From Parashewanella curva (lineage in GTDB: Bacteria; Pseudomonadota; Gammaproteobacteria; Enterobacterales; Shewanellaceae), in NCBI RefSeq assembly GCF_003675895.1, contig NZ_ML014796.1:1-33839 (forward strand): 33,839 nucleotides of DNA, written 5' to 3'. The stretch's first letter is position 1, and each line of letters starts with the position of its first letter. The position numbers and the translations under genes are program-made. Under the pieces are notes generated by a model. It made no database searches, was not told where the DNA came from, and saw only the letters and a program-made list of their open reading frames with translations. Shown here piece after piece: positions 28,478-31,712 of this stretch.

Positions 28478-28927
28478 TTATTCTTTGTTTAATTCTGTCG
28501 GTAACAAGTTATTTTGTAAGCTAGGGGGAATTTTATACCAATTGCCCGAGGCTGATTTTAGAAACCCATCTTGGGTATAAAATTGCCAGCTCATTGGCTG
28601 AGGTGATTGCTGGACGGTAATTTCTAGGTGTTTGAACTTATCATCACTCAAGCTAGGCTGAGCAATAGGGCTTATCTTGAGTTGATGCCAAGCTTGTTGC
28701 CATAATTGACACTGCTCAAGCTTAGGTTGGCAGTCCCAATTATTTTTGTTTTTTGTTAAGGTGTAACCATCGACGCTGATTTGTTTTATGGTCGCTTGTT
28801 GATCAAACAAGGGGATAGCATCATCGGGTATGTTTGCTGTTTTGTTGTGCAAAACAGTCAGGGTGCCTATCATCGCAGCACTGGCAAGAATAATAATGTT
28901 ATTCCATTGTTTTCGGGTTAACGCCAT
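28478..28927 (-). CDS. Small membrane-anchored protein upstream of mutM
   Basis: A 149-residue protein of unknown function. Residues 1-10 are basic ([10 protein letters not shown]) and 11-27 form a single transmembrane helix or uncleaved signal. The rest (28-149) would be periplasmic, with two Cys in [16 protein letters not shown] that could form a disulfide and a C-terminal Trp- and Pro-containing part ([14 protein letters not shown]). It precedes mutM by 7 bases in the same operon; that position alone does not imply a repair role. The gene begins just inside the MITE-like element's left side (15 bases away), so its promoter may lie within or beyond the element. Confidence 0.8.
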
Positions 28928-29258: not shown

Positions 29259-29822
29259 TCACGACAGCTCATCAATGTGGTTGCAGTTGATAAAGTGTTT
29301 GGCATCGAACTCAACGGTTTGGTATTGATGACGGCGATACCATGCCATGACTCGACGCTCTCCGGAAGCAAGATAATCATCCAGATCAGCTTTTAATTGT
29401 CGTTTGAGTAACATGATCACCGCATGCTCTTTATGACTGTCACAGGCCACGACAATATCTGTATTGTCTTGAGCTAATGCAAGTTGCATTTTTTCCAATA
29501 GATCACTCGGGAGATGAGGAGTATCACAGGGGAGCATCAGAAGCCATTCTGATTGGCAATGGTGTAATGCGGTGGATAATCCTGATAGCGGCCCTTGAAA
29601 TCCTGACAATTCATCGCTGAAGACGGGGTAACCAAACGCTTGGTATGATTCGATATTGCGATTAGCCATGATCATAAGGCGATTGACTTGTGGGTGAATC
29701 GTATCAATGACGTGCTGTACCAAAGGTCGATGTTGAAACGTGACTAGGCCTTTATCTTGGTACTGCATGCGTCGACCTTGCCCTCCGGCAAGGATCACTG
29801 CTTCAACAGAAAGATCAGACAT
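29259..29822 (-). CDS. mobA: Molybdenum cofactor guanylyltransferase
   Basis: A 187-residue enzyme (E. coli MobA 194) that attaches GMP to molybdopterin to make the guanine dinucleotide cofactor. The nucleotide-binding loop is VILAGGQGRRMQYQDKGLV with Lys24. SGFQGPLSGLSTAL and MLPCDTPHLP (metal-binding Asp) follow. It has a weak ribosome site (AATAGCAAT before ATG 29822). The gene begins 40 bases after the terminator of the RyhB-like sRNA, and I see no convincing separate promoter, so mobA may depend partly on read-through. Confidence 0.95.
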   Translation of the reverse strand: MSDLSVEAVILAGGQGRRMQYQDKGLVTFQHRPLVQHVIDTIHPQVNRLMIMANRNIESYQAFGYPVFSDELSGFQGPLSGLSTALHHCQSEWLLMLPCDTPHLPSDLLEKMQLALAQDNTDIVVACDSHKEHAVIMLLKRQLKADLDDYLASGERRVMAWYRRHQYQTVEFDAKHFINCNHIDELS

Positions 29823-29861: not shown

Positions 29862-29890
29862 AAAAAAAAAGGCCGGACTGAGAGTCCGGC
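29862..29890 (-). terminator. Terminator of ryhB
   Basis: GCCGGACT, 3-base loop, AGTCCGGC: an 8-bp GC-rich stem followed on the minus strand by C and nine T's. A U-run of this length is typical of Hfq-binding sRNAs. It may also stop read-through from the acyl-CoA synthetase gene. Confidence 0.92.
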
Positions 29891-29989
29891 ATAAGAGTGT
29901 GAGCAATGTTGTGCTTGCATACCCATCCAGAGAAACTAACCAACTTACAATCGAACTATTTTAGTTCTCAAGAATGAGTTTTGGAACGC
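29862..29989 (-). ncRNA. ryhB: Fur-regulated small RNA RyhB
   Basis: A non-coding transcription unit of about 128 bases on the minus strand. It contains AAGCACAACATTGCTCACAC (29916-29897), which differs from the E. coli RyhB core AAGCACGACATTGCTCACA at a single position (A for G); this core holds the seed that pairs with mRNAs of iron proteins. It starts near 29989, 7 bases after a TATCAT -10, under a strong Fur box, and ends in a GC hairpin with nine U's. RyhB is an Hfq-dependent sRNA that represses iron-using proteins when iron is low. The longer 5' part (29989-29917), which contains two AACT...AGTT-like arms, is not recognisably conserved. It lies between the acyl-CoA synthetase gene and mobA. 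Confidence 0.88.
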
Positions 29990-29991
29990 AA

Positions 29992-30010
29992 ATTAATGAT
30001 AATCATTCTC
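29992..30010. promoter_or_regulatory. Fur box
   Basis: ATTAATGATAATCATTCTC matches the 19-base Fur consensus GATAATGATAATCATTATC at 16 positions, including the whole central TAATGATAATCATT. It covers the -10 and part of the spacer of the ryhB promoter, so Fur with iron would block it. Confidence 0.9.
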
Positions 30011-30024
30011 ATTTTCTTTTGCAA
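29996..30024 (-). promoter_or_regulatory. ryhB promoter
   Basis: On the minus strand TTGCAA (30019-30024), a spacer of exactly 17 bases and TATCAT (29996-30001). The -10 lies inside the Fur box. Confidence 0.82.
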
Positions 30025-30056: not shown

Positions 30057-31712
30057 TTACAACTCATCTTCCCATTTCACAACACCACCGCGTAGGCCAT
30101 CAACAATACTTGTAAAACGCTGCTCTAATATGTGGCGTTTAATTTTTAGAGTTGGGGTCAATACGTCATTTTCAGTTGTCCATGGTTCACTAACAATCAC
30201 GATAGCATCTAAGGTGGCGTGAGATTCCAGTGTTGGATTAAGTTGATCCAAAGTTGTTTTAAGGGCATGGCGAATGTCATTACGCGGCATAAGTGATGCG
30301 CCTTCCGCCAATTGCACTAAGGCTACAGGGTGAGGTAACCCTGCTCCAATGACACATAAGAGTTCAATATGCGTGTCTTGTGCTAATTTACGCTCGATTG
30401 GCACTGGAGCAACATATTTGCCTTTAGCGGTTTTAAAATTATCTTTGATACGTCCGGTAATTTTAATGTAGCCATCAGCATCAATCTCTGCGACATCACC
30501 TGTATGGAAGAAACCATCGGCTTCGAATACCTGCGTGGACGTTGTTTCATCCTTATAATAACCAGTCATTAATCCGGGACTGCGAACCAAAAGTTCATTT
30601 TGGTCACCTAAGCGAATGTCACAGCCATCGACAGGCACGCCAATGGTGCCGATTTTATTAGGGTTGAATGGATAGTTAATGATCGAATAAGCGCAGTTTT
30701 CGGTCATTCCCCATGCTTCACAAATTTCAATACCAATACCTGCAAACCATTGAATAATGGCTTTAGGCAATGGTGCAGAACCGGAGCCAAATAAACGGCA
30801 CTGATTAAGTCCTAAGCCTTTGCGGATTTTTCTTTTGATCATGCTGTTGAGAATAGGAATACGCAATAGCGTGTTCAGCTTTTTAGCGCCGCCGGCTTTT
30901 TCAATAATGTTTTTCTGGAACAAGCTCCAGAGTCTTGGCACAGATAAAAAGAACGTAGGTTGGCAACGATTGACATCATCAATGAAGCTATCCAAGCTTT
31001 CCACAAAGGCCACTTGAGCACCGTTGTAGACGGAAGTTCCAAGAATGGCGACACGCTCCGTGATGTGGGCCAGTGGTAAATAAGAAATCAGCCTGTCAGT
31101 ATCTTTAATTTGAATATGGTTGGCGGCGCAGCCACACGTCCAGCCATAGCTGGCAAAGGTTTGCATTGCCCCTTTAGGGTTACCGGTTGAGCCTGAGGTA
31201 TAAATGATGGTCATTAACTCATCAATCTGAGGGTAGGGCTGGTTAGTTAATGGTTCGCCAATATTGAGAAAACTTTGCCATTGATATTGAGCGGGCATGG
31301 TGTCATATGGGAATGCGATTCGAATAATATCTCCAGCAATGGCTGGTTCTTGGTCTTGCCAGTAATCTAATTTACCAACAAAGACCGCTTTTGCATCACT
31401 GTGTTCAAGTACATAACTGATAGTATCGGCATTGGCGGTTGGGTAAATGGGCACACTGATATAGCCGCCGAGCATTAAGGCAAAGTCGGTAATGAACCAC
31501 TCAGCGCAGTTTTTAGATAACACCGCAATTTTATCACCGGGTACAAATCCTAAGTGACGCAACCCTCCTGCGACTTGTTGTGACATTTTGCGAACTTGTT
31601 GCCAAGTGTAGTCTTGGTATTGGCCGCTTATCGGTTGTCTTAGATAAACTTTGTCTCCATGGGCATCAGCCCAAAAATCGAGCATTTCAACGGGTGTTTT
31701 TATGGTTGTCAT
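30057..31712 (-). CDS. Long-chain fatty acyl-CoA synthetase (AMP-binding)
   Basis: A 551-residue ANL-superfamily enzyme that activates fatty acids to acyl-CoA through an acyl-AMP. The phosphate loop is IIYTSGSTGNPKGAMQTF near 168-185. The AMP-binding motif is ICEAWGMTENCAYS; the hinge follows in FHTGDVAEIDADGYIKITGR, and then the C-terminal lid with catalytic-type Lys in NFKTAKGKYVAPVPIE. Length and the YLPLAHITERV segment fit the long-chain (FadD15/FAA1-like) group rather than acetyl-CoA synthetase. The exact chain length is not readable. ATG 31712 is preceded by a weak site. The ryhB gene starts 68 bases after its stop. Confidence 0.92.
   Translation of the reverse strand: MTTIKTPVEMLDFWADAHGDKVYLRQPISGQYQDYTWQQVRKMSQQVAGGLRHLGFVPGDKIAVLSKNCAEWFITDFALMLGGYISVPIYPTANADTISYVLEHSDAKAVFVGKLDYWQDQEPAIAGDIIRIAFPYDTMPAQYQWQSFLNIGEPLTNQPYPQIDELMTIIYTSGSTGNPKGAMQTFASYGWTCGCAANHIQIKDTDRLISYLPLAHITERVAILGTSVYNGAQVAFVESLDSFIDDVNRCQPTFFLSVPRLWSLFQKNIIEKAGGAKKLNTLLRIPILNSMIKRKIRKGLGLNQCRLFGSGSAPLPKAIIQWFAGIGIEICEAWGMTENCAYSIINYPFNPNKIGTIGVPVDGCDIRLGDQNELLVRSPGLMTGYYKDETTSTQVFEADGFFHTGDVAEIDADGYIKITGRIKDNFKTAKGKYVAPVPIERKLAQDTHIELLCVIGAGLPHPVALVQLAEGASLMPRNDIRHALKTTLDQLNPTLESHATLDAIVIVSEPWTTENDVLTPTLKIKRHILEQRFTSIVDGLRGGVVKWEDEL

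Follow-up and report, generated by a model that had tools for sequence, protein, structure and literature searches.

Among the described systems, the one closest to the RNA analysed here is the RyhB of Shewanella oneidensis. Its gene has been placed at 4,920,234-4,920,401, where BLAST and the Rfam model had both missed it, and the accessible text of that report gives it a Fur box matching at 15 of 19 positions, a 20-fold induction in a fur mutant, RACE ends corresponding to 168 nt and, upon overexpression, repression of sodB but not of sdhA and acnA (PMC2964681). A tandem arrangement of ryhB is in print for S. amazonensis in the same text (PMC2964681). A later report, in the part of its text that is accessible, describes by northern blot a S. 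oneidensis RyhB of ~127 nt that needs Hfq, with sodB and ten cytochromes negatively affected (PMC5826389).

The window, by which we mean the whole stretch of 33,839 nucleotides analysed here, carries on its minus strand a unit whose RNA is very probably the organism's Shewanella-type RyhB, expected to be made without iron and to pair with the mRNAs of iron proteins. The identification draws on sequence elements, their conservation, support for the structure and a match in the sodB leader; transcription, Fur binding, Hfq use and target repression in the window organism, together with an iron response of the RNA, are what we infer from it. The RNA is a relative of the RyhB already studied in Shewanella and its kind is not new. 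Added here are a defined 5' domain, the spread of the RNA over 116 genomes and core-only satellites in one relative, none of which was found in the accessible parts of the literature on Shewanella and tandem RyhB.

The unit between mobA and the acyl-CoA ligase gene

The predicted transcript of ~128-130 nt occupies 29862-29991 of the minus strand, where the covariance model R1, described below, matches 29864-29991 with 92.2 bits. It lies between mobA downstream (29259-29822, minus strand; TIGR02665, 222.4 bits) and a long-chain acyl-CoA ligase-like gene upstream (30057-31712, minus strand; PF00501, 239.3 bits). The initial annotation had proposed such a minus-strand unit between these two genes, and all of its elements were found in place. 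A -35 element TTGCAA (30019-30024) and a -10 element TATCAT (29996-30001) form the expected TTGCAA-17-TATCAT promoter at 30024-29996 of the minus strand; taken alone, a promoter of this type is not above chance, with 2 found against 2.0 expected in 701 bases. The Fur box over the -10 (29992-30010, minus strand) matches the consensus GATAATGATTATCATTATC at 16 of 19 positions, as had been noted, and at 15 of 19 when scored on the strand printed in PMC2964681. Allowing up to three mismatches, a search of the 33.8-kb window returned only two Fur-box matches, which overlap on opposite strands, against 0.02 expected.

The promoter and the Fur box could be compared over 45 copies with an exact core (loci L007-L076 only, with at least 150 bases upstream and near-identical copies merged, the 5' motif not being required). 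A TTGC promoter with the same spacing is present in all 45, as is an upstream Fur box of at least 13/19, and a FUR-family gene is found in each of the five genomes of the window's genus. The predicted window transcript also folds better than all of 200 shuffled versions (z -3.58).

It is extremely improbable that the stretch encodes a small protein, or that it is merely the leader of mobA or the 3' region of the ligase gene. A 24-codon frame does run from an ATG at 29926 (minus strand) through the terminator, but this ATG is missing in five other copies from the genus that keep the core and the helices, and the next ATG stays in genome G009, where, however, the frame shifts behind the core. 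All three versions are opposed by a unit bounded by its own promoter and terminator. Further along the same strand, between mobA and mutM, sits a 149-aa protein (28478-28927, minus strand) for which neither Pfam nor NCBIfam gave a match at E 0.001; proteins that resemble it (MALTRRQWNN..., MALARKQWNN...) adjoin mutM in loci L026 and L044.

Core, terminator and distribution

The RyhB core AAGCACAACATTGCTCACACT, the predicted target-pairing region, is located at 29896-29916 of the minus strand and differs at 2 of 21 bases from the E. coli RyhB core, with 0.00 such matches expected by chance. The single difference originally claimed is correct for 29897-29916 but not over 29916-29896, which holds both. 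The window core is an exact match to the Shewanella-type core AGCACNACATTGCTCAC. The intrinsic terminator (29862-29890, minus strand) consists of an 8-pair stem (29890-29872), a 3-base loop and C followed by nine T, in agreement with the GC hairpin and nine U's described at first. Terminator-like sites number 2 against 0.6 expected, and a T-run stands behind the core in 45/45 of the exact-core copies.

Searching 116 family genomes for the core pattern AGCACNACATTGCTCAC with one mismatch allowed retrieved it in 95 of them, and exactly in 5/5 genomes of the window's genus. Some one-mismatch matches are due to chance, for example L006 of genome G024, which lies inside a gene and was dropped; G003 has a one-mismatch core match and no R1 match. 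The exact core adjoins mobA in all five genomes of the genus; elsewhere the copy stands beside mobA in G014 and G019, and ~6 kb from mobA in G001 and G023.

R1 was built from 23 compact copies, the window copy being part of the training set, and finds in the window genome a single copy, at 92.2 bits, the next best match scoring 17.8 bits. It matches 98/116 family genomes at E 0.001 and, at E 0.01, 25 of 197 genomes of the order (12 inside the family and 13 outside). Twelve of the 13 outside matches hold a RyhB core, the exception being L101, and the three outside-family loci that were tested score 68-72 bits on the Rfam RyhB model RF00057, whose cut-off is 55. Thus, R1 extends to accepted RyhBs of RF00057 grade and connects them, within a single model, with the window RNA.

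In genome G100, the R1 match at 4,920,217-4,920,345 overlaps the published S. oneidensis ryhB, and this genome is almost surely that of S. oneidensis MR-1; genus g2 is therefore Shewanella. Of 121 bases aligned between the G100 RNA and that of the window, 97 are identical. The initial view of a RyhB-type RNA under a Fur-box promoter is supported by a conserved place and architecture and by an experimentally studied relative. At the S. oneidensis locus (L187, G100:C1:4918600-4921800), the published RACE start, as given in the accessible text, lies past UUCCA, 17 bases further downstream than the conserved start, and the RACE end 56 bases beyond the model end at the terminator, while the later estimate of ~127 nt fits the conserved unit.

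Relationship to the Rfam families

A scan of the window with Rfam at gathering cut-offs found nothing, and the window RNA scores 17.8 bits against RF00057, below the gathering cut-off of 55 bits, so that the search with the RyhB family model suggested by the initial annotation turned out negative. Among eight other family loci, L026 alone was listed at an E of at most 1, scoring 25.9 bits. The same blind spot of the Rfam model for Shewanella RyhB is in print (PMC2964681). We file the window RNA as a Shewanella-type RyhB and not as a member of RF00057 as that model stands.

PrrF of Pseudomonas (RF00444), an RNA with an iron-sparing role, is the other family to be weighed. On its model the window RNA scores 29.6 bits (E 0.0024), more than the 17.8 bits on the RyhB model, which might suggest a Fur-controlled RNA of separate, PrrF-like origin that resembles RyhB in action only. 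However, this score is far under the PrrF gathering cut-off of 90 bits, and comparable PrrF scores are obtained for two loci above the RyhB cut-off, L091 (33.4 bits) and L097 (29.9 bits). PrrF identity was rejected, since the score is below the cut-off and driven, as judged by eye, by the Fur box and terminator; the core, the genomic place and the Shewanella relatives favour RyhB, and a separate origin appears highly unlikely.

The 5' domain

The initial annotation recognised no counterpart for the first 70 bases of the transcript; this was wrong, as Shewanella RyhB has a matching 5' domain. The length of ~128 nt stands as predicted but is not unusual for the group, S. oneidensis RyhB measuring ~127 nt. 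The domain opens with a conserved element TGCGTTCCAAA (29980-29990, minus strand), the TGCGT of which pairs with ATGCA, followed by a hairpin at 29921-29979 (minus strand) with outer arms ACTCATTC (29979-29972) and GGATGGGT (29928-29921). In the minimum-energy fold of the window RNA itself, TCCAAA (29985-29980) is an unpaired bulge and the first U of UUCCA is paired. The lineage-specific pairing sites suspected in this region find no support: it is mostly closed in a hairpin, and it starts with the element in 45/45 exact-core copies.

In these 45 copies, [G/A]TTCCA occurs 4-10 bases behind the -10 in company with a TTGC-type -35; the count is 45/45 when anchored on the promoter and 41/45 when anchored on the best-scoring Fur box, whose register is shifted in four. 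RyhBs with diverged cores keep the element too, in L174 (two copies), L175 and L176 by pattern and in L177 by eye. The folds were examined in a set of 47 transcripts, the selection pattern for which required the 5' motif. Folded alone, the 5' domain has at least four long-range closing pairs in 44/47 copies, and three fold otherwise. UUCCA, positioned between a TGC:GCA helix and an ACTCA:TGAGT helix, is wholly unpaired in 34/47 of these predicted folds, and each of its bases taken singly in 37 to 45 of the 47.

Pair counts used 23 compact rows that had been picked by hand. Here, a structure given by hand has 91.5% of its cells paired, against 88.3% in shuffles and 23-40% in slid versions, and both-side changes number 14 versus 4.4 in shuffles; pair types, in contrast, are no more numerous than in shuffles, of which 140/500 reach as high a number. 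RNAalifold on the 46-row alignment A1, which holds 46 of the 47 transcripts (one near-copy in L073 is left out), returned 7 pairs only, the arms perhaps being out of register. The predicted folds and pair counts support the 5' part as a conserved hairpin domain, and UUCCA looks like the stretch in it that most resembles a fixed contact site.

One may speculate that RyhB of this family is a two-site regulator, in which UUCCA serves as a second pairing or protein-binding site besides the core, a reading that we hold as tentative and rather doubtful. Such a second site would have gone unrecognised because the Rfam RyhB model, with only 67 positions, starts close to the core and runs to the terminator.

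We also note CUUCAUC[A/U]C in the 5' domain of 17/46 A1 copies, all Shewanella rows, three of which have the full CUUCAUCUCC, the complement of a ribosome site and AUG taken together (GGAGAUGAAG). UUCAUC is present in none of the six A1 rows from the window's genus.

Predicted target sites

Within the core, TGCTCACA at 29905-29898 (minus strand) complements TGTGAGCA in the sodB leader of the same genome, a site that starts 39 bases before the start codon, opposite UGCUCACA. Over 75 bases before the start, scored by Watson-Crick match against Markov shuffles, sodB leaders match the core complement over at least 7 bases in 19/21 core-positive genomes (2.39 expected) and over at least 8 in 17/21 (0.6 expected), although the genomes are related and the counts not independent. 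The core-positive genomes that do not have the site are G001 and G031. A TACAAT-like -10 immediately precedes the site in many leaders, so that the site is perhaps close to the mRNA 5' end. This sodB leader match supports the expected RyhB function at the level of sequence.

Pairing with sodB does not appear to be universal in the family, since in genus g3 only 2/14 sodB leaders show a match of at least 7 bases, one of them overlapping the -10, and the other 12 are without a site even though at least three g3 genomes (G012, G024, G032) have a RyhB. An apparent co-loss of core and sodB site (19/21 core-positive genomes versus 2/15 others, Fisher 4e-6, with 4/40 genomes, namely G003, G005, G008 and G010, excluded as their start was not recognised) was dropped because G012, G024 and G032 carry a diverged RyhB.

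Of the pairing predictions proposed for candidate targets, the sodB leader match stood above shuffles in core-positive genomes, and the duplex energies for sodB and sdhC did not rise above background. With 25 window genes as background (mean -18.1, sd 3.1), the RNAduplex energies of the sodB, sdhC, petC and cymA/napC-like leaders show no clear advantage. In sdhC, GTGAGCA is found in the first codons in G016 and the four genus genomes examined, a match of 7 bases that is near chance, and no control of sdhA by RyhB was seen in S. oneidensis according to the accessible text of PMC2964681. The window genome has two strong matches to NapC/CymA-type cytochromes (G000:C45:4340-4864 and G000:C56:1751-2275), as does G009; the other three genus members have one each.

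Copy number, diverged copies and satellites

A second ryhB was not found in the window genome: its RF00057 matches L001, L003 and L004 are without ATTGCTCAC nearby and have no Fur box above 13/19. L079, the R1 match of 17.8 bits, does contain ATTGCTCAC but was rejected as a second copy, since the motif is antisense to a long reading frame that encloses it and no Fur box there exceeds 12/19. G009 and G004 carry two tandem ryhB copies and the window genome one. By a count made by eye, R1 matches two or three times in 40/116 family genomes, in most cases with the matches no more than ~1 kb apart. In the 15 loci inspected, a Fur box scoring 13-16/19 accompanies every copy that carries the 5' element, and one further 5'-element match, in L173, is due to chance.

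The two copies in other genomes of the genus (G009, G004) might suggest that the window copy has decayed and is no longer made or used, and its R1 score is the lowest among the best copies of the five genus genomes (92.2 against 94.0-116 bits). Against this, its promoter, Fur box, core, closing helix and terminator are intact, the sodB site is retained, and it is the sole copy found in its genome, corresponding best to the mobA-proximal copy of G009. Decay is therefore very improbable. In G009, whose MobA is the most similar within the genus, L173 (G009:C1:185400-186300) holds a second, ligase-proximal ryhB with a shortened core AGCAAACATTGCTCAC; the window genome keeps only the mobA-proximal copy. 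A hybrid origin of the window copy from both G009 copies found no support, since no piece except the promoter is nearer the other copy, and that one marginally so (60 vs 57).

Diverged RyhB cores, which the pattern AGCACNACATTGCTCAC misses, were seen as CACAGCATTGCTCACACGG in g3 (L174, L175, L177) and CTTTGCTCACAAAA in g5 (L176). These RyhBs have the same Fur-type promoter and a UGCGUUCCAA start, and the upstream coding sequence is GNAT-like by eye. Our guess for g3 is Ferrimonas, for which a literature search on RyhB found nothing.

G073 has two Fur-driven RyhBs, and behind each come units repeated head to tail that contain a core and a terminator-like hairpin, or what remains of one, and have no Fur box. 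The places concerned are L070 (G073:C13:1-1800, at 618-1373 and 1-336) and L185 (G073:C14:137600-139554, at 1609-1955); one RyhB is followed by 7.3 copies of 103 bp, and a contig edge that seems to follow the other holds at least 2.8 copies of 119 bp. Such arrays may give a read-through multi-core RNA, act as a sponge-like array or represent decay.

Proposed mechanism and significance

With iron present, Fur would sit on the box over the -10 and keep the gene off; with iron absent, it would leave, allowing an RNA of ~128-130 nt that ends at the GC hairpin to be made. The core ACAUUGCUCACA, aided by Hfq, would then pair with the leaders of mRNAs for dispensable iron proteins and lower their translation and stability, sodB being the best supported target and cytochromes being suggested by analogy. 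The 5' domain would form a closed hairpin ahead of the core, with a conserved, mostly unpaired UUCCAAA.

The iron-sparing RNA of the window's genus can now be grouped with Shewanella RyhB, and R1 offers a working model for a group of RNAs that escapes the public RyhB family. What had been an unknown 5' extension becomes a defined, testable structure with a conserved element, and specialists gain a larger set for asking how RyhB target sets drift under a constant core.

Comparison with known systems

PrrF resembles the window RNA in its Fur-box promoter and its terminator, and in the alignment to the PrrF model the match lies, by eye, mainly in these two elements. Enterobacterial RyhB (RF00057) shares with it the core (2 differences in 21), a terminator and, as predicted for the window RNA, Fur control, whereas the 5' domain of the window RNA is longer, and its core is followed by ACUCUU where the outside-family copies have AUUGCUUCC. 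The RyhB of S. oneidensis MR-1 has, like the window RNA, a Fur box over the promoter, the core, a terminator and a length of ~127 nt, and its 5' start UUGCGUUCCAAAACUCAU is identical to that of the window RNA. The location in the mobA region is shared with other Shewanella-type genomes, and the sodB site is shared within the group. The two differ in that the window core has CACAACAUUG in place of CACGACAUUG and lacks a CA repeat, and in the upstream neighbour, which is an acyl-CoA ligase gene in the window and a GNAT gene (SO_4716 by position) in S. oneidensis.
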